64,000 bases of DNA from Agrobacterium tumefaciens. GTDB taxonomy: Bacteria; Pseudomonadota; Alphaproteobacteria; Rhizobiales; Rhizobiaceae. Each line of letters opens with the position of its first letter. Positions within the stretch are counted from its first letter, which is position 1. The position numbers and the translations under genes are program-made. Where the stretch lies: NCBI RefSeq assembly GCF_005221385.1, contig NZ_CP039903.1, forward strand, positions 248,001-312,000, read 5' to 3'. Of this stretch, positions 17,627-34,070 are shown piece by piece. Under the pieces are notes generated by a model. That model saw only the letters and a program-made list of their open reading frames with translations, was not told the origin of the DNA and made no database searches.

Positions 17627-18808
17627 ATGACAGAGAAATGTGACGTGCTGATTTTAGGGGCGGGCGCCGCCGGCATGATGTGCGCCATCCGCGCCGGCCA
17701 GCGCGGTCGCTCCGTCGTCATTCTCGACCATGCCAAGGCGCCGGGCGAGAAAATCCGTATCTCCGGAGGCGGACGCTGCAATTTCACCAATATCCATGCC
17801 GGGCCGAAGAACTATCTCTCCGCGAACACGCATTTCGCCAAATCCGCACTCGCCCGCTACACGCCGCGCGATTTCATTGCTCTGGTGGAAAAGCATCGCA
17901 TCGGCTGGCATGAAAAAACGCTCGGCCAGCTCTTTTGCGATGACAGCGCCAAGGACATCATCCGCATGCTGCTTGGCGAAATGCAGGCGGTGAATGCGAA
18001 GCTGCGGCTCGAAACGTCAGTCTCGGCGGTCGCTCACGATGGCGGGCGTTTTCGCGTGACCACGTCTGGCGGTGTCATCGAGACCGAAAGCCTTGTCGTG
18101 GCGACAGGGGCTAAGTCGATCCCGAAAATGGGCGCGACCGGTTTTGCCTACCAGATCGCCGAGCAATTCGGCCTGCCGCTCATCGAGACGCGCCCGGGAC
18201 TCGTGCCGCTGACGCTCGATCCTGCCGCGCTGGAAAAGCTGAGCCCGCTTGCCGGTGTCGCGGTTCCAGCCGAGGTTTCTCACGGCAAGACCTCATTTGA
18301 AGAGGCGCTGCTCTTCACGCATCGCGGTTTGAGCGGTCCCTCCATCCTGCAAATCTCCTCCTACTGGCGTGAAGGCGACGCCATCCGCCTGAAGCTCGAA
18401 CCGGGCCGCGATATTGCCGCGCTGCTGAAACAGGCGAAACAGAAGAACGGCCGCCAGTCGCCCCAGACCGCTTTGTCGGAAATCCTGCCGAAACGGCTCG
18501 CCCAGCACGTCGTCGAACAATCTGGCCTCACCGGCCATCTGGCCGATATGTCCGACAAGGCTTTGGCGAAGCTGGCGGACGAGGTGCAGGACTGGCAGAT
18601 CAAGCCCGCCGGTTCGGAAGGTTATCGCACGGCGGAAGTCACGCTTGGCGGCGTGGATACGACGGGCCTCGATTCCCGCAGCATGGCGGCGAAATCCGTA
18701 CCCGGGCTTTATTTCATCGGCGAATGCGTGGACGTCACCGGCTGGCTCGGCGGTTATAACTTCCAGTGGGCTTGGGCCTCAGGGCAGGCGGCAGGCGAAT
18801 TTGCGTGA
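17627..18808 (+). CDS. HI0933/BaiN-family flavoprotein
   Basis: 393 residues. N-terminal FAD-binding CDVLILGAGAAGMMCAIRAG, then GEKIRISGGGRCNFTN, the hallmark of this family, and a C-terminal GLYFIGECVDVTGWLGGYN that closes the FAD site. Members are cytosolic NAD(P)/FAD oxidoreductases of mostly unknown physiological substrate (BaiN acts on bile acids in gut bacteria). The open frame extends upstream to 17249 but overlaps the divergent glutamine synthetase; MTEKCDVLI is the natural start, with another ATG three bases earlier. It stands alone. Confidence 0.85.
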   Translation: MTEKCDVLILGAGAAGMMCAIRAGQRGRSVVILDHAKAPGEKIRISGGGRCNFTNIHAGPKNYLSANTHFAKSALARYTPRDFIALVEKHRIGWHEKTLGQLFCDDSAKDIIRMLLGEMQAVNAKLRLETSVSAVAHDGGRFRVTTSGGVIETESLVVATGAKSIPKMGATGFAYQIAEQFGLPLIETRPGLVPLTLDPAALEKLSPLAGVAVPAEVSHGKTSFEEALLFTHRGLSGPSILQISSYWREGDAIRLKLEPGRDIAALLKQAKQKNGRQSPQTALSEILPKRLAQHVVEQSGLTGHLADMSDKALAKLADEVQDWQIKPAGSEGYRTAEVTLGGVDTTGLDSRSMAAKSVPGLYFIGECVDVTGWLGGYNFQWAWASGQAAGEFA

Positions 18809-18819
18809 AACCGCCTGTC

Positions 18820-18835
18820 TTAACACCTTGTTAAC
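18820..18835 (+). promoter_or_regulatory. CtrA-type box
   Basis: TTAACACCTTGTTAAC matches the alphaproteobacterial CtrA pattern TTAA-N7-TTAAC exactly. It lies 11 bases after the flavoprotein stop and 129 bases upstream of the small membrane ORF at 18964. Confidence 0.45.
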
Positions 18836-27131: not shown

Positions 27132-27944
27132 ATGAAGCGCGGAAAATTCGACATCACCGTCCTCACCCTCGGTTTTGCCTTTCTTTATATCCCGATCATC
27201 ATCCTGATCGTTTATTCCTTCAATGCCTCCAAGCTCGTCACCGTCTGGGGTGGCTTCTCGCTTCAATGGTACCGCTCCATGTGGTCGAACCAGGGGCTGA
27301 TGGATGCCGCCTGGGTGACGCTGCGCGTCGGTATCCTCAGCGCCACCATCGGCACCATCCTCGGAACGCTGGCGGCGTTATCGCTGACCCGTTTTGCGCG
27401 CTTCCCGGGCCGGGTGCTGTTTTCCGGCATGATCTATGCGCCGCTCGTCATGCCGGAGGTTATTACCGGCCTGTCGTTGCTGCTGCTGTTCGTGGCTGTC
27501 GGGGTGGATCGTGGTTTCTGGACGGTGGTCATCGCCCATACGACTTTCACCATGTGTTATGTGGCGATCGTCGTGCAGTCGCGCCTGCTCACCTTCGACC
27601 GCAGCCTTGAGGAAGCCGCACTTGATCTCGGCTGCCCACCGGTGAAGACCTTCTTCCGCATCACCCTGCCATTGATCTTCCCAGCCGTCATCGCCGGCTG
27701 GATGCTGGCGTTTACGCTGTCGCTCGACGATCTGGTGATCGCCAGCTTCGCCACAGGCCCCGGCGCAACCACGCTGCCGATCAAGATTTACTCGCAGGTA
27801 CGTCTTGGGGTGACGCCGGAAATCAATGCCATCTGCACGATCCTCATCGGCCTTGTGACGATCGGCGTCATTGTCACCTCCATCACGTCCAAACGCACCG
27901 AACTGCAGCGGATGCGGGACGAGCACGCCGCCGCCCGCAACTGA
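27132..27944 (+). CDS. potI: Polyamine ABC transporter, permease
   Basis: 270 residues, six membrane segments and EAA loop LEEAALDLGCPPVKTFFR. It starts four bases after the potH stop, so it is translationally coupled. It completes the polyamine importer; together with the PuuA/PuuB-like pair at 14765-17455 the strain should be able to take up and degrade putrescine. Confidence 0.92.
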   Translation: MKRGKFDITVLTLGFAFLYIPIIILIVYSFNASKLVTVWGGFSLQWYRSMWSNQGLMDAAWVTLRVGILSATIGTILGTLAALSLTRFARFPGRVLFSGMIYAPLVMPEVITGLSLLLLFVAVGVDRGFWTVVIAHTTFTMCYVAIVVQSRLLTFDRSLEEAALDLGCPPVKTFFRITLPLIFPAVIAGWMLAFTLSLDDLVIASFATGPGATTLPIKIYSQVRLGVTPEINAICTILIGLVTIGVIVTSITSKRTELQRMRDEHAAARN

Positions 27945-28073
27945 TTATCGGCTCTGCTTCGATTTCCTCACGTTACTGTTGAAATCGCAATAAAATTAGA
28001 AACCTGTAATTTAGTTTTGGGACTCTACGGTCTCAAAATAGGAATTATCGTCGGTAATTGCTCGATTTTGGTT

Positions 28074-28088
28074 TTAACCGCTTGTTAA
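28074..28088 (+). promoter_or_regulatory. CtrA-type box in orphan intergenic region
   Basis: TTAACCGCTTGTTAA fits TTAA-N7-TTAA. It overlaps a possible -35 (TTGTTA, 28082-28087) with TAAACC at 28106-28111 as a weak -10, the arrangement of CtrA-activated promoters. Confidence 0.45.
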
Positions 28089-28117
28089 TAGGAGTTGGCG
28101 GAAAGTAAACCTAACGC

Positions 28118-28237
28118 AGGGTTGTCAAATTTCTGACGGCCGGGATTGATAATTTCCATATGGCGAGGTCGTCCCCCCTTTCTCTCGTTAAAAAAAGCAC
28201 AACTAATACAGGCGGCCGAAAGGCCGCCTTTCTTTTT
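28118..28237 (+). ncRNA. Candidate small RNA between potI and the iron-type permease gene
   Basis: The 313-base gap 27945-28257 has no ORF with a binding site. It contains a CtrA-type box and possible promoter (28074-28111) and ends in a strong terminator 173 bases after potI would have stopped being transcribed from its own end; no plus-strand gene lies between. The inferred transcript is about 120 nt with an unpaired pyrimidine-rich stretch (GTCCCCCCTTTCTCTCG) of the kind that pairs with ribosome-binding sites in alphaproteobacterial sRNAs. A CtrA-activated sRNA (GspR) is described in Sinorhizobium meliloti; identity with it cannot be judged here. The start is approximate. Confidence 0.5.
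28210..28237 (+). terminator. Rho-independent terminator (orphan, plus strand)
   Basis: AGGCGGCC / GGCCGCCT stem with a GAAA tetraloop, followed by TTTCTTTTT. No coding gene ends within 260 bases upstream on this strand; the convergent permease gene ends at 28258. Confidence 0.88.
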
Positions 28238-28257
28238 GCTGAGATACCGGGCGCTGC

Positions 28258-29922
28258 TCAGCTGTTTTCCGGATGATCCATGGATTTCGAGACGAGAAGC
28301 ACGGGAATAAGCCCGGCGATGATGATGATGATCGCCGGAACGGCGGCATCCTGCACCCTGGAACGGGATGCATCCTCATAGACCAGCGTGGCAAGCGTGT
28401 TGAAACCGAAAGGCCTGAGCAGGATGGTCGCCGGCAGTTCCTTCATGGATTCGATCAGCACCAGCAGAAAAGCGGTCAGCGCCGCCGGCCGCATATTCGG
28501 CAACAGCACCTTGAACAGCGTCTGCAAACGATTGCGCCCAAGCGTGCGCGAGGCCATGTCGATATGCGGCGAAAGCTTCTGGAAACCGGCATCGAGCGTG
28601 CCTTCCGCCATGGTCATGAAACGCACGCTGTGCGCATAGATGATGGCGAAGGCGGTGCCGGAAAGCAGCAGGCCGCTGGAAAAGCCGAAATGCGCGCGGA
28701 TGAAGCCATCGACGCTATTGTCGAGACTGGCCAGCGGAATGAGCACCCCGATGGCGAGCACGGTTCCCGGCACGCCATATCCCATGGAACCGAAGCGGGC
28801 GGCCACCTTCGAGGTGCGCGAGCGCTCGGTGCGGATGGCATAGGAAAACACGAAGGCGGCTATCAGCGTCACCAAGGCGGCGGAAAACGAGACTTCGAGA
28901 CTGTGTCCGAGCGCTTTCAGAAGCTTCGGCGCAAACAGTGCGTCGAGCCTCCTGGTGGCGTAACCGCCGAGCACGATGACGGGAATGAAAAAGCCGCTCG
29001 CGACAGGAACGAAGCAGAACAGGCTCGCGCACCAGCGCCGCCAGCCGGTGAGCGCCTTCAGCCGGTGACGCTGCGCCATGCTTGTCGCCTTCGGCGCGCC
29101 GAAGCGTTGTTTTTCGCGGGCATTGCGTTCGATGACGATCAGCGCGCCGACGATGATGAGGATGACAGCGGCGATCTGCGTCGCATTGGCGAGATTGCCG
29201 CGATTGAGCCAGGTCTCGTAAATGGTGAAGGTCAGCGTCTGGACACCGAGATATTCAACCGCACCGATATCGTTCAGCGTCTCCATCAAGACTAGCGAAA
29301 GCCCGATGGCAATCGCCGGCCGCGCCATCGGCAATTGCACGGAAAAGAACACGCTGAGCGGCTTTGCGCCAAGCGTGCGGGCCGCTTCCGCCGCAAACCG
29401 GCCCTGCATGGAAAAGGCGGCGCGGGCCGAGAGATAGACATAGGGGTAAAGAACGGAACTCAGGACGATCACCGCGCCGCCAAGCGAGCGTATGTCGGGA
29501 AACCAGTAATCGCGGATGCTGTGATAATCGAAAGCGGCGCGAATTGCGCTCTGCACCGGGCCGGTGAAATCAAGGAACTCGCCGAAGGCATAGGCAGCCA
29601 GATAGGAAGGAATGGCGAGCGGCAGCACGAGTGCCGCAGACAGCAGACGCCGCAGCGGAAATTCGAATGTCGTGACGAGCCATGCGCAGGCTATGCCGAA
29701 AAAGGCCGTCGTTGCGGCCGTCATCCCCAGTAATAGGAAGGTGCGAAACCCCGCACGCGGCAGGACATTGGCGAGAAGGTGTTGCCATCCTTCCGTACTG
29801 CCGGTCAGCGCCAGCCAGAAGATCGCCAGAATGGGCATGGCGGCAATGGCCGCGACGATGACCGCCGCGATAGGCAGTATCGAAACGCGTTTTGTGGCTG
29901 GAAGGGAAACCGTCATGGGCAT
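28258..29922 (-). CDS. Iron(III)-type ABC transporter permease, fused two-domain
   Basis: 554 residues with about 12 membrane segments in two repeated permease halves, each with an EAA-type loop (ARTLGAKPLSVFF near residue 195, and the ASRTLGRNRLQTLFKV stretch near 460). This is the FbpB/AfuB/SfuB architecture for ferric-iron uptake, though thiamine and other substrates use the same fold. No binding-protein or ATPase gene lies nearby, so its partners are encoded elsewhere. The kinase gene pdhS1 lies 75 bases upstream on the same strand. Confidence 0.82.
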   Translation of the reverse strand: MPMTVSLPATKRVSILPIAAVIVAAIAAMPILAIFWLALTGSTEGWQHLLANVLPRAGFRTFLLLGMTAATTAFFGIACAWLVTTFEFPLRRLLSAALVLPLAIPSYLAAYAFGEFLDFTGPVQSAIRAAFDYHSIRDYWFPDIRSLGGAVIVLSSVLYPYVYLSARAAFSMQGRFAAEAARTLGAKPLSVFFSVQLPMARPAIAIGLSLVLMETLNDIGAVEYLGVQTLTFTIYETWLNRGNLANATQIAAVILIIVGALIVIERNAREKQRFGAPKATSMAQRHRLKALTGWRRWCASLFCFVPVASGFFIPVIVLGGYATRRLDALFAPKLLKALGHSLEVSFSAALVTLIAAFVFSYAIRTERSRTSKVAARFGSMGYGVPGTVLAIGVLIPLASLDNSVDGFIRAHFGFSSGLLLSGTAFAIIYAHSVRFMTMAEGTLDAGFQKLSPHIDMASRTLGRNRLQTLFKVLLPNMRPAALTAFLLVLIESMKELPATILLRPFGFNTLATLVYEDASRSRVQDAAVPAIIIIIAGLIPVLLVSKSMDHPENS

Positions 29923-29997: not shown

Positions 29998-32900
29998 TCA
30001 GTTGGCAAGAACCCGTTGCGACGGAAAGGTGATTTCCACCAGCGTGCCTTCATTCGGCGTCGAGGTGATGGAGAAATTTGCGCGGTTGGCATCCACCATC
30101 GCCTTCGTCAGTGGCAGGCCAAGCCCGGTGCCGTCGCCGCGCACGCGCTTGCTGGATGAGGCCACCTGCCGGAATGGCTTCATGGCCTGTTCCAGCTCCG
30201 CCCGCGTCATGCCGATGCCGGTGTCGCGGATGCGCAGCGAGACGCTGCCATTCGCCTCGTAGGCCGTAGACACCACGATCTGGCCGCCGGATGGCGTGAA
30301 GCGGATGGCGTTGGACAGAATGTTCAGCACGATCTGCTTGATCGAGCGCAGGTCGGCAACGATCTGCGGCACGGATTGTGACAGTGCGGTGCGGATGATG
30401 ACACGCTGATTGTTGGCCTGCGGCTGCACCAGCGAGACCGCTTCGGCCACCGTCTCGTTCAGCGGCACGGCGATGAAATCCACATCCATCTGCCCGGCCT
30501 CGATCTTGGAAATGTCGAGCAGATCATTGACGATGTCGAGCACGTGCCGGCCGGAGCGGCCGATATCATTGGAATATTCCGCATAACGCGGATGGCCGAT
30601 CGGCCCGAACCGCTCGGTCGCCATCATGTCGGCAAAGCCGATAATGGCGTTGAGCGGTGTGCGGATTTCATGGCTGACGCGGGCCAGGAAATCGGTCTTG
30701 TGGGCATTGGCGGTTTCCGCCGCGCGCTTGGCGTTGCGGAGTTCTTCTTCCGTGCGCTTCCATTGGGTAATGTCGCGGATGACGGCGCAATAGCCATGCG
30801 AGGATTTAAGCCGCCCGATGGTCATGAACAGCGGCAGGAAACCTCCTGACGCTTCGCGGCCGATCACCTCACGGCCATCATTCAGCACGCTGGCCACACC
30901 ATTATTGGCAAGGCCGGAGAGATAATCCAGCACGGCGCGCTGGCTCTCATGCGCAAACAGGGTGACGAAGGGCTTGCCGGCAATTTCGCCATTGTCATAG
31001 TTGAACAGCGCGCTGGCGGAACGGTTGAGCGAGCGGATTTCGCCGTTGTCTCCCAGTAAAACCACGCCGTCGGTGGCGGTCTCCAGAATGGAATGCAGTT
31101 CCTCGACTTCGCCCTGCAGCACGGAAACACTGCCGGCTTCTTCACCCGCTGTTGCTGCCGTATTTTCGTTCGCTGCTGCAACCGGCGTCTGCTTTTCTTC
31201 CAGCGGAACCAGCGACAGCATCAGTGCCTTGGTTTCTTCCCAGCGGATGGACTGTAACCGCGCCTTGACCGGAATGATGTCGTTTTCGGCGCTGACCACG
31301 ACCATGCCGCCCTCATTGTCAGGCATCTCGTCCAGCTCCTGCCGCTGCAGAAGCGCTTCCAGTCCGCCCACATCCTGGAGTTCCTCAAGCGAGGTGTAGC
31401 CCGTCAGCCGCAGGAAATCCGGGTTGGCGTGGATCAGCCTGTCGCCGGCATGGACAAGAAGCGCCACCGGCATCTGATCCAGTGTCTCGGCCGTGAGTAT
31501 ACCGGCGGGGCGAGGGGGAGGGCTAACCATCGCGGCGGCAATATCGGCCGTCGGCTGCTGGTCCGTTGCGGTGTCTTCCTTCTCGCCGGTATCGATTTCA
31601 GTCGTCGGCGCGGGGGCGGCAGCCGGCCGCTCACCGCGAACATAATCGGCGAAAAGGTCGTCCTCTTCCGCCGTTTCGGTTGCCTTGGCAGCCTCTTGAG
31701 CGTTCTGCGTTTCGTCCACAGGCGTTTCCGGGGCGATATCTTCACGACTATCCTGCGGAACCGGCGCGGCGGAATAAGCCTCTTCGTCCGCTTTGCGGTT
31801 CTCGTCTGCAAGGGCATCGATGGGCGCAAGTGTTCGGCCGATTTCCCTGAAGGCGGCCTGTTCGCCTGCGGTCAGACCCTCTCTCGAGCGTGAGCGGCGC
31901 TCTTCCAGATGAACGACCTTGTCGGAATAGGAGGGCTCGGCTTCTGGAGCGGGTGCCAGCGTCGGCGCTTCGAATTCCGCCGGGCTGTCATCGTGATGCT
32001 GGTCTTCGTCTGAAATCTCGCCCGTGGTGCCGTCAGATTCAACCGGGGTCTCATCGCCACCGGCAGAAACAGCATCGTCTTCGGCGGCGTCATCCTCTTC
32101 GAGAAAAGCCAGCAATTCGTGGCTTTCATCCTCGGTGTCCGGTTGTGGCGAAGCCTCGGTCGGAAAAATCTCCTGACCTTCCAGGAAGGTCAGGCCGGTG
32201 GCATGCGGATCTTGCGCGGCGTCGGCAAGCCGCACGATGCCGAAACCACGGAATCCGTCGAATTCGCGCGAGCGCGTATAGGTGGGCAGGGCGGCGAGGT
32301 CGATCGGCACCATCAGTGAGGTGCCTTCCACCGGCCAATAGATCGTCTTGCCCGACCATGTGTCGCGACGGCTAAGAAGTTCGCGAATCTTGCCATCCGG
32401 ATCGAGGTTGAAAAGCGCGGCCACATCGGCAAAGCCCATGCCTTCGACAGCCGCCGCCTTTGTGCCGACAGCTTCTGCGAATTCATGCGAAATCGAGCTG
32501 AAGCGCCCCTCTGCATCGATTTTCCAGACGAAACGGGATGCGCGGGCACCGGCATTAAACACAAAAGCCGGTGCTTCTTCTGCGGCTTCCGTTTCCGCCG
32601 GGATATCCCCTTCCGCCGGCGCGGCGGCCTGAGCAGTCACGGTTTCGGTGATCTCTTCCGCTGGTGCGCTCTCAGCTTCTTCGAATGCCTCTTCAGCATG
32701 GTCGTGACCGGCGGCACGCTCGATTGCCGGCGCCTCTTCATCATCTGCATCGAGTTCGAAGAGATCGGCAATATCGTCCGTCATGGCCTCCTGCGCGGCG
32801 GCATCGGCATCTTCGACAGGAATATCCAGCAGGGCCTCGGCCTGTTCTTCTGCCGGCAGGGGAAGGGCGTCCAGTTCCTGTTCCGCCACAATCTCGTCTT

Positions 32901-33756
32901 CGATATCGGCAGGCAGTTCCGGCACGTCCTCCACATCCTCGATACCGGCAACGGCATCAAGCACGGAATCAAAGGAGGCCGCGGCTGCGGCAACAGGTGC
33001 GGCCTCTGCGGCCGGCAAAACTGGCTGAACGGCAGCCGGTGCTTCCTGCGGCTTGTCTTCAGCAAAACCGTTGACGGGATCGAGCGTACCAAGCGCGGTC
33101 TCGACCACGAACATCAGGTTGAGTTCGGGTGACGCCGTGATCTGGCCCGTAGCCGCCGGCAGATAACCCTTGCCCGTCGGCACGGGACGTTTGACGAGAT
33201 GGCCGGACTGGCCTGCGGCCATGCGCACCAGCGTCCTTGCCGTATTCGGCGTAATACCGAGTGACGAGAAGCGCGGCGAAGCAGCGATAATCTCGTTTTC
33301 GCCGTTCAGAACCGCCATATGAATATCGGGGTCGTCAAAACCTTCGATCATGCGCCGGGCGCATTCCGCCGTGTCAGGCGCGGCCTGATCGGTAAGGGCG
33401 GAAAACAGTATTGCGGGCTGGCCCGGTTCCGCTTCAATGATTTCCGCCTTGGCGGTCACGGCAATGCTGCGGAACCCGGCATTGATGCGAATGGTAAACG
33501 GCAGGCTGTCGCCCGCCTGGGAAAGCCGTGCCGCCGTTGCCGCCAGCTGCCGGAAGGTCACATCCTGCCGCTTCGGGCCCTGTTCCAGAAAATCGTAGAC
33601 CATCGGCGTGCCGAACAAAGCCGCACCCCGGCCGTTGGCCCAAAGGGCGCTCTGAAGGTCGAGCGAAAACAAAGCCATCGCCTCGCCGCGCCCGAAACCT
33701 TCACGCACCCGTTCATGCACTGCTATATCGATAAAGGGATACTGGACGGCGGGCAT
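29998..33756 (-). CDS. pdhS1: PAS-domain sensor histidine kinase, PdhS/CbrA family (PdhS1)
   Basis: 1252 residues. PAS-like regions at about 20-130 and 400-525, an acidic Ala/Glu-rich linker between and after them (about 230-400 and 530-740), two PAS domains at about 755-995, then HisKA (H-box ARVSHEIRTPLNAIIGF, about 1015-1080) and HATPase (LNILSNAIRFTPSGG, DTGIGM, GTGLGLPLTKAMV, about 1105-1250). It is cytosolic or membrane-peripheral, as no membrane segment is visible. PdhS-type kinases act on DivK and PleD and so on CtrA, controlling division, polarity and envelope state; the Sinorhizobium counterpart is CbrA. The frame is open to 33906, but ATG 33756 (MPAVQYPF) fits the family. A CtrA-like box lies about 90 bases upstream. 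Confidence 0.82.
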   Translation of the reverse strand: MPAVQYPFIDIAVHERVREGFGRGEAMALFSLDLQSALWANGRGAALFGTPMVYDFLEQGPKRQDVTFRQLAATAARLSQAGDSLPFTIRINAGFRSIAVTAKAEIIEAEPGQPAILFSALTDQAAPDTAECARRMIEGFDDPDIHMAVLNGENEIIAASPRFSSLGITPNTARTLVRMAAGQSGHLVKRPVPTGKGYLPAATGQITASPELNLMFVVETALGTLDPVNGFAEDKPQEAPAAVQPVLPAAEAAPVAAAAASFDSVLDAVAGIEDVEDVPELPADIEDEIVAEQELDALPLPAEEQAEALLDIPVEDADAAAQEAMTDDIADLFELDADDEEAPAIERAAGHDHAEEAFEEAESAPAEEITETVTAQAAAPAEGDIPAETEAAEEAPAFVFNAGARASRFVWKIDAEGRFSSISHEFAEAVGTKAAAVEGMGFADVAALFNLDPDGKIRELLSRRDTWSGKTIYWPVEGTSLMVPIDLAALPTYTRSREFDGFRGFGIVRLADAAQDPHATGLTFLEGQEIFPTEASPQPDTEDESHELLAFLEEDDAAEDDAVSAGGDETPVESDGTTGEISDEDQHHDDSPAEFEAPTLAPAPEAEPSYSDKVVHLEERRSRSREGLTAGEQAAFREIGRTLAPIDALADENRKADEEAYSAAPVPQDSREDIAPETPVDETQNAQEAAKATETAEEDDLFADYVRGERPAAAPAPTTEIDTGEKEDTATDQQPTADIAAAMVSPPPRPAGILTAETLDQMPVALLVHAGDRLIHANPDFLRLTGYTSLEELQDVGGLEALLQRQELDEMPDNEGGMVVVSAENDIIPVKARLQSIRWEETKALMLSLVPLEEKQTPVAAANENTAATAGEEAGSVSVLQGEVEELHSILETATDGVVLLGDNGEIRSLNRSASALFNYDNGEIAGKPFVTLFAHESQRAVLDYLSGLANNGVASVLNDGREVIGREASGGFLPLFMTIGRLKSSHGYCAVIRDITQWKRTEEELRNAKRAAETANAHKTDFLARVSHEIRTPLNAIIGFADMMATERFGPIGHPRYAEYSNDIGRSGRHVLDIVNDLLDISKIEAGQMDVDFIAVPLNETVAEAVSLVQPQANNQRVIIRTALSQSVPQIVADLRSIKQIVLNILSNAIRFTPSGGQIVVSTAYEANGSVSLRIRDTGIGMTRAELEQAMKPFRQVASSSKRVRGDGTGLGLPLTKAMVDANRANFSITSTPNEGTLVEITFPSQRVLAN

Positions 33757-33842
33757 GTCGAAACCTATTCTGGCACTACCGGACCTCGAGGGCTTTTCAG
33801 CCTCCTCATGAAGCTGAAAGGTAAACCCGCTATGGCACCACG

Positions 33843-33857
33843 TTAACAGAATTTTAA
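33843..33857 (-). promoter_or_regulatory. CtrA-type box upstream of pdhS1
   Basis: On the gene's own strand the sequence reads TTAAAATTCTGTTAAC, matching TTAA-N7-TTAAC. It is about 87-101 bases before the pdhS1 start. Confidence 0.45.
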
Positions 33858-34070
33858 ATAACTTCACAGGCCGGCGGGGTCCACCATCCGGCGGATGAAT
33901 CGCCAAATAGAGTTAACATGAACAGGCCTCGGCTCCGCCCCTTATCCGTCTCGGCGCAATGAAAGCGCTTGCCTTTCGACGCCTTTTTTCGCAAAATTCA
34001 CAGAGGCACTTGCAAATGGGGGAAACACCTTTTATGTCACCCCCCGTGACGCCGCTTCGGCGTTTCATGT

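Follow-up and report, generated by a model that had tools for sequence, protein, structure and literature searches.

The 313-bp intergenic gap at positions 27945–28257 of the Agrobacterium tumefaciens DNA analysed here (a 64-kb stretch, referred to below as the window) very probably holds a conserved small-RNA gene with a CtrA-type promoter. That this is an independent gene encoding a trans-acting sRNA is by far the best reading and one that we consider likely. The gene, its structure, the position of its CtrA-type box and its linkage to pdhS1/cbrA are supported by sequence evidence, and beyond these we infer that the gene is transcribed, where exactly it starts, that CtrA activates it and does not repress it, and that Hfq and target mRNAs are involved. 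The gap lies between the end of potI at 27944 on the plus strand and fbpB at 29922–28258 on the minus strand. potI (27132–27944, plus strand), the last gene of potFGHI, is named from operon context and carries the Pfam domain BPD_transp_1; the convergent fbpB-type ABC permease gene (28258–29922, minus strand) has two BPD_transp_1 stretches and takes its name from S. meliloti, where fbpB is described as flanking cbrA (PMC11500502). Beyond it on the minus strand is a gene for a pdhS1/cbrA-type histidine kinase (29998–33906; HisKA, HATPase_c and PAS domains), the TTG start of which at 33906 is probably too early, the true start probably lying near 33756. The PdhS1/CbrA kinase acts upstream of CtrA, the master regulator of the cell cycle. 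The first-pass annotation had placed the gap next to pdhS1; fbpB intervenes (approximately 1.8 kb), while the proximity itself recurs in other genera, where the element is likewise found near pdhS1/cbrA.

Within the gap, a conserved upstream block is followed by the CtrA-type box, a promoter core, the RNA gene and its terminator. The small-RNA gene, of approximately 123 nt, occupies 28115–28237 on the plus strand as delimited by two covariance models, R1 and R2, with its start placed by conservation, within 3 nt of the start at 28118 proposed previously; both models, whose training sets include the window's own sequence, match G000:C1:276115-276237, which is 28115–28237. It is intergenic, has an intrinsic terminator and contains no conserved ORF, as is expected of a small-RNA gene. 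Sequence conservation, covariation, the fixed distance of the box and synteny strongly support the earlier proposal that an sRNA of some 120 nt lies downstream of a CtrA-type box. The upstream block (AATAGGA..., 28037–28059, plus strand, at roughly -78 to -56 relative to the start of the RNA) lies in a stretch, 28036–28073, with a mean pairwise identity of 0.933 among 21 genus members, and overlaps the range of SciP sites in Caulobacter CtrA promoters. The promoter core (28089–28114, plus strand) is conserved at a mean identity of 0.934. A -35/-10 pair suggested for this region was not recovered, as the promoter scan gave no consensus sigma-70 -35/-10 pair on the plus strand and its sole match was on the minus strand.

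The CtrA-type box TTAACCGCTTGTTAA at 28074–28088 on the plus strand is, as first annotated, an exact TTAA-N7-TTAA, and its 5' base is at -41 from the RNA start. Three exact TTAA-N7-TTAA sites are present in the 64-kb window against 0.10 expected from shuffles, and at the genome-wide rate approximately 0.003 sites would be expected in the 313-bp gap. Genome-wide there are 48 such sites versus 51 for a reversed control pattern; the bare motif is therefore not enriched, and the case for the box rests on conservation. Of the 38 genus members that were parsed, 37 have the exact box at -40 to -42 and one, L074, has a single changed base; the box is also seen by eye at the same place in L066, the 39th genus genome and outside the parsed set, giving 38 of 39 in all. 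In other genera TAA-N7-TTAA is present in 23 of 42 members (all R1 matches outside the genus below 1e-4, minus a second copy in G288), at -40 or -39 in every case, and is absent from seven upstream control windows of the same size. The exact box is absent in the remaining 19 of 42, of which a few had a misplaced anchor and most by eye retain a half site there. TAA-N7-TTAAC is the consensus reported from five verified S. meliloti CtrA sites (PMC3616915), and in Caulobacter full TTAA-N7-TTAA sites with the 5' base near -35 are described as going with activation by CtrA (PMC4287350). With its 5' base at -41 from the conserved start, and nearly fixed across genera where exact, the box in the gap would fit this near -35 criterion of a CtrA-activated promoter.

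A genuine box that is read by a regulator other than CtrA, or at which CtrA represses, is an unlikely alternative that draws on the conservation of more sequence than CtrA needs. The half sites are identical throughout 21 close genomes (identity 1.000), yet the N7 between them is also partly conserved (0.886), and many members from other genera have in common GGTAAGG..TTGTTAAG, which exceeds the requirement of the CtrA consensus; some members have half sites alone, and a similar box could serve other regulators. Against this, half-site pattern and spacing are those of the CtrA consensus reported in two species (PMC3616915, PMC4287350), a position near -35 fits activation rather than repression, and CtrA is reported on the S. 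meliloti cbrA promoter (PMC4433202). Two further exact TTAA-N7-TTAA sites were observed in the window. One (TTAACACCTTGTTAA, 18820–18834) is just past an ORF ending at 18808. The other, at 33843–33857 on the plus strand, is approximately 90 bp upstream of the likely pdhS1 start, in agreement with the report that in S. meliloti the cbrA promoter is bound and controlled by CtrA (PMC4433202). One short region thus probably holds two predicted CtrA outputs, the kinase PdhS1 and the RNA.

The predicted RNA consists of two hairpins, the first at the 5' end, followed by a conserved linker and a terminator. The 5' hairpin SL1 (28120–28141, plus strand) has 7 pairs, two of them with compensatory changes in alignment A2, and in alignment A5 such changes are found in 6 of 6 pairs. 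Hairpin SL2b (GCGAGG/TCTCGT, 28163–28188, plus strand) displays the C run TCGTCCCCCCTTTC in its loop; all of its cells in the alignment are paired (100%), yet it is almost invariant and so carries little information. An alternative, SL2a, which buries the C run, is also compatible with the alignment and competes with SL2b in close relatives. The linker CTCTCGTT..AAGCACAA (28184–28209, plus strand), conserved in alignments A4 and A5, is likely a pairing or Hfq-binding stretch. The intrinsic terminator identified by the terminator scan (28210–28237, plus strand) is strong, with 8 pairs, a GAAA loop in the window and a T-rich tail TTCTTTTT, and compensatory changes are present in 6 of 7 pairs in A5; it had been recognised in the first-pass annotation together with a pyrimidine-rich stretch, which is present at approximately 28172–28186. 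Four terminator sites were scored between 27700 and 28500 against 0.8 expected.

A5 contains 35 diverse sequences and 17 pairs in three helices, and compensatory changes were found in 16 of the 17. The proportion of cells that pair was 89.9% compared with 75.8 +/- 1.0% in shuffled alignments, double-change cells numbered 104 compared with 28.6 +/- 7.4, and the covariation score was 0.507 compared with 0.233, the observed values being attained in 0 of 500 shuffles; these shuffles ignore relatedness and the alignment also supplied the structure, yet observed and shuffled values are far apart. When the structure was slid along A5, pairing dropped to 30–58% with at most 24 double-change cells. On this evidence all three helices, those of the 5' hairpin, the second hairpin and the terminator, very probably form in the RNA. 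A closing helix joining the 5' end to the linker is only suggestive: own pairs gave -6.7 versus -6.2 kcal/mol for swapped pairs, with 123 of 2000 swaps equally stable, in a comparison counting 34 of 37 sequences, three without the anchor motif having been dropped. By eye, most A5 members (rows L062–L145) have a second RNA motif, GACATGATGT, or something near it. This motif is not kept in the window's clade, where the C-rich loop is found instead, and this clade may have changed targets.

The element was found at the same place in all 39 genus genomes searched (23 close and 16 diverged; L066 by eye) by looking beside fbpB. A DNA search had recovered either the whole gap or its 3' two thirds from 20 of 36 other sampled genomes of the genus, and the 16 diverged members had escaped nucleotide search. 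A DNA search with the L021 sequence among 297 family genomes, with two candidates scored per genome, likewise gave three matches only, corresponding to two genus members and one 28-nt match to the terminator. Nucleotide search is too blunt for this element, and covariance models and synteny were used instead. In five diverged Agrobacterium genomes (L061, L063, L064, L065 and L067) an extra stretch, by eye a gene, is present between the RNA and fbpB; box and RNA are intact in these despite the insertion.

At E <= 0.01, R1, built from 27 Agrobacterium sequences, found matches in 75 of the 394 family genomes. The covariance search across the Rhizobiaceae proposed at the outset gave its widest result with R2, built from 35 sequences of many genera, which matched 98 of the 394 (E <= 0.01) in 27 of 109 genera, its training sequences counting among the matches; 64 genomes scored below 1e-7. 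In a sample of the order R2 matched 12 of 297 genomes, two of them outside the family (L181 and L183), and these two were set aside as chance matches, their 3.1-kb loci showing no pdhS1 and no box being present. Some weak matches are real, exemplified by five in g97 (E 5e-5 to 2.6e-3) that directly adjoin pdhS1 with a box at -40. Eighteen R1 matches in a 111-genome subsample comprised 14 near pdhS1, three elsewhere and one in a genome without a pdhS1 match; the three away from pdhS1 (G062, G156 and G168, best E 5e-4 to 9e-3) are probably due to chance. G288 has two equally scoring RNA copies (C11:762443-762569 and C16:411643-411769), possibly an artefact, since the assembly is listed with 9% contamination. 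When pdhS1 3' flanks were taken from genomes without an R2 match, 6 of 20 held a candidate at E < 0.03, all convergent with pdhS1, and the other 14 held none at that threshold; a TAA-N7-TTAA precedes five of the six candidates by 14 to 40 nt, with a distance of 40 nt in three cases. More members probably exist than the models detect.

Linkage to pdhS1/cbrA is close to complete. The PdhS1 kinase region was matched in 98 of the 111 subsampled family genomes, and 22 of 23 R2 matches there are on the same contig as pdhS1, approximately 10 nt to 4.6 kb from it and all convergent with it, the 23rd being in a genome (G148) with no pdhS1 match. An fbpB-type permease gene is the convergent neighbour of the element in 26 of 42 relatives from other genera. 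Twelve wide loci, drawn from 11 other genera, all have the element between potFGHI, 2.2–4.5 kb upstream, and the pdhS1 side, with which it is convergent, the downstream side being fbpB-pdhS1 in seven and pdhS1 directly in five. This arrangement lends something to a role in cis, in which the RNA and its terminator would act on the 3' end of the convergent fbpB-pdhS1 transcript in an antisense or insulating manner instead of on distant mRNAs: where no fbpB intervenes the RNA model and kinase matches end only 11–35 nt apart (six genomes: G088, G132, G083, G153, G162 and G165), and the terminator stem also passes a loose scan on the minus strand, where its tail is interrupted (GTATTAGTTG). We regard this role as improbable, however, as an insulator requires no CtrA box, no covarying 5' hairpin and no conserved linker, and in the remaining linked relatives of the subsample 1.7–4.6 kb separate the RNA from pdhS1.

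The distribution of conservation within the gap bears on whether the terminator simply ends the potI transcript, the conserved sequence then being a potI 3' UTR. potI shares the strand of the RNA and ends 170 nt before it, and the terminator scan showed no further plus-strand terminator between potI and that at 28210–28237. Even so, this explanation is very improbable, since box, core and RNA are conserved whereas the first 91 nt after potI are poorly so (identity 0.715 among 21 genomes, and 0.37 between the window and L021), and since the models still match the element in the 12 wide loci where potI is 2.2 to 4.5 kb away. Mean identity of the RNA in 21 close genomes (210 pairs) was 0.882 versus 0.665 for potI four-fold sites; after the terminator it was 0.487. 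Seven ORFs of at least 20 aa touch the gap, and the earlier statement that it contains no ORF is correct only in that no frame is kept among relatives, as two of these ORFs, both on the plus strand, run through the RNA (one of 54 aa from a TTG at 28146, the other of 38 aa from an ATG at 28160). Although both frames are open across the RNA in the window, it is scarcely credible that the gap holds a small protein gene or that its conservation arose by chance, given the covarying pairs and a C run, crossed by both ORFs, that varies by single bases (4 to 6 C) among 21 relatives, so that no reading frame is kept.

For an independent sRNA gene the following mechanism can be proposed. Phosphorylated CtrA would bind the TTAA-N7-TTAA box at -41 to -27 and recruit RNA polymerase to a promoter without a good -35/-10 of its own, and transcription from approximately 28115 to the terminator at 28237 would produce a 123-nt RNA with the hairpins, linker and terminator described above. 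CtrA-P would thereby turn the RNA on, perhaps jointly with pdhS1, and the RNA would use its C-rich loop and linker to base-pair with mRNAs, probably aided by Hfq.

As one target picked in advance, ctrA was examined by comparing duplex energies with those at background starts, which are ORFs of the window only, some of them probably spurious. Over -45 to +15 the duplex energy of the window's RNA with ctrA was ordinary, 21 of 66 background starts being equally good. At the ctrA ribosome-binding site (-25 to +6), four of seven close genomes, at -25 to -27 kcal/mol, beat all 44 background starts; in the other three the corresponding counts were 1, 2 and 10 of 44, the value of 10 belonging to the window's own variant; in two diverged sister-clade species they were 13 and 12 of 44. 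Pairing above all background was thus seen in four of nine genomes overall, the window's own not included. The modelled energies make ctrA feedback possible in part of the A. tumefaciens complex; as a conserved function it is unproven, and so is the cell-cycle loop suggested in the first-pass annotation. We offer only tentatively the broader idea that a CtrA-activated sRNA, maintained beside cbrA/pdhS1 across much of the Rhizobiaceae, feeds back on the CtrA circuit; in the A. tumefaciens complex its C-rich loop, which reads GUUGUCCCCCUUUCU in the majority of close relatives, would then pair with the ctrA ribosome-binding site AAAGGGGAUAAUUAUG and switch off ctrA translation after CtrA fires.

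Rhizobial and agrobacterial CtrA regulons have been described, in the literature consulted, via protein-coding genes, and the main text of the S. meliloti CtrA ChIP paper (PMC4433202) does not contain 'sRNA', 'small RNA' or 'noncoding' in these unhyphenated spellings. A conserved RNA with a CtrA-type box at a near-fixed distance, near the gene for a kinase upstream of CtrA, would give the cell-cycle circuit a defined RNA output that can be tested, in a large family of bacteria to which both plant symbionts and A. tumefaciens belong. Its interest lies in this wide conservation, the tie to cbrA/pdhS1 and direct testability.

Comparison with Rfam 15 gave no family at the gathering threshold in the 64-kb window except one tRNA, and when nine loci were searched with E values of up to 10 allowed, STnc50 scored highest on the element, with 26.5 of 55 bits (E 1.3). 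No description of the locus was found in open-licence main texts, and RNA-seq tables may well list the RNA without a name. In the 24-row Northern table published for A. tumefaciens C58 (PMC3738593) no entry resembles the locus, by rough coordinates only, and none of the sRNA families in the main text of Reinkensmeier 2011 (PMC3927594) could be placed there. The SmelC151/sm190 and SmelC165 families described in that text resemble the element in being Rhizobiaceae-wide small RNAs. SmelC151 was rejected as its S. meliloti relative, as it overlaps sm190 between SMc00821 and SMc00822 at 843 kb according to the published descriptions and is not beside fbpB/cbrA (PMC2573895, PMC7143759). SmelC165 (910 kb), described as absent from A. 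tumefaciens C58 (PMC3927594), is an unlikely relative; it had been a guess from gene numbers and was dropped.

Several described sRNAs share individual properties with the element. PmaR (C10) of A. tumefaciens is also an Agrobacterium trans-sRNA with a C-rich loop but differs by description in lying between two hypothetical ORFs and in being restricted to Agrobacterium and Rhizobium sp. IRBG74 (PMC6234868). In Caulobacter, CCNA_R0094 and CcnA are reported as cell-cycle-regulated ncRNAs of the CtrA network (PMC4287350, PMC8959179); CCNA_R0094, placed among CtrA boxes at the chromosome origin (PMC4287350), belongs to another class of locus. EcpR1 (SmelC291) is, like the element, a conserved Rhizobiales trans-sRNA, and one that acts on the cell cycle (PMC7143759), but it is described as repressing dnaA and gcrA and as ppGpp-induced from a sigma-70 promoter at the celR2/rpmG locus (PMC7143759, PMC2780559). 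The parallel drawn in the first-pass annotation was to GspR (SmelC775) of S. meliloti as a CtrA-activated sRNA. The published description does not bear out that characterization, as GspR represses ctrA and cspA5 and its 5' end is without a known promoter signature (PMC5928217). GspR resembles the element in being a trans-sRNA of similar size (143–144 nt) tied to the CtrA circuit, but it is described as Sinorhizobium-restricted and lacking in A. tumefaciens, and its locus is between SMc03844 and SMc03845 (PMC5928217), compared with potFGHI-pdhS1 for the element in the window and in 12 of 12 wide loci. On the published description, GspR and the element are distinct RNAs from distinct loci.
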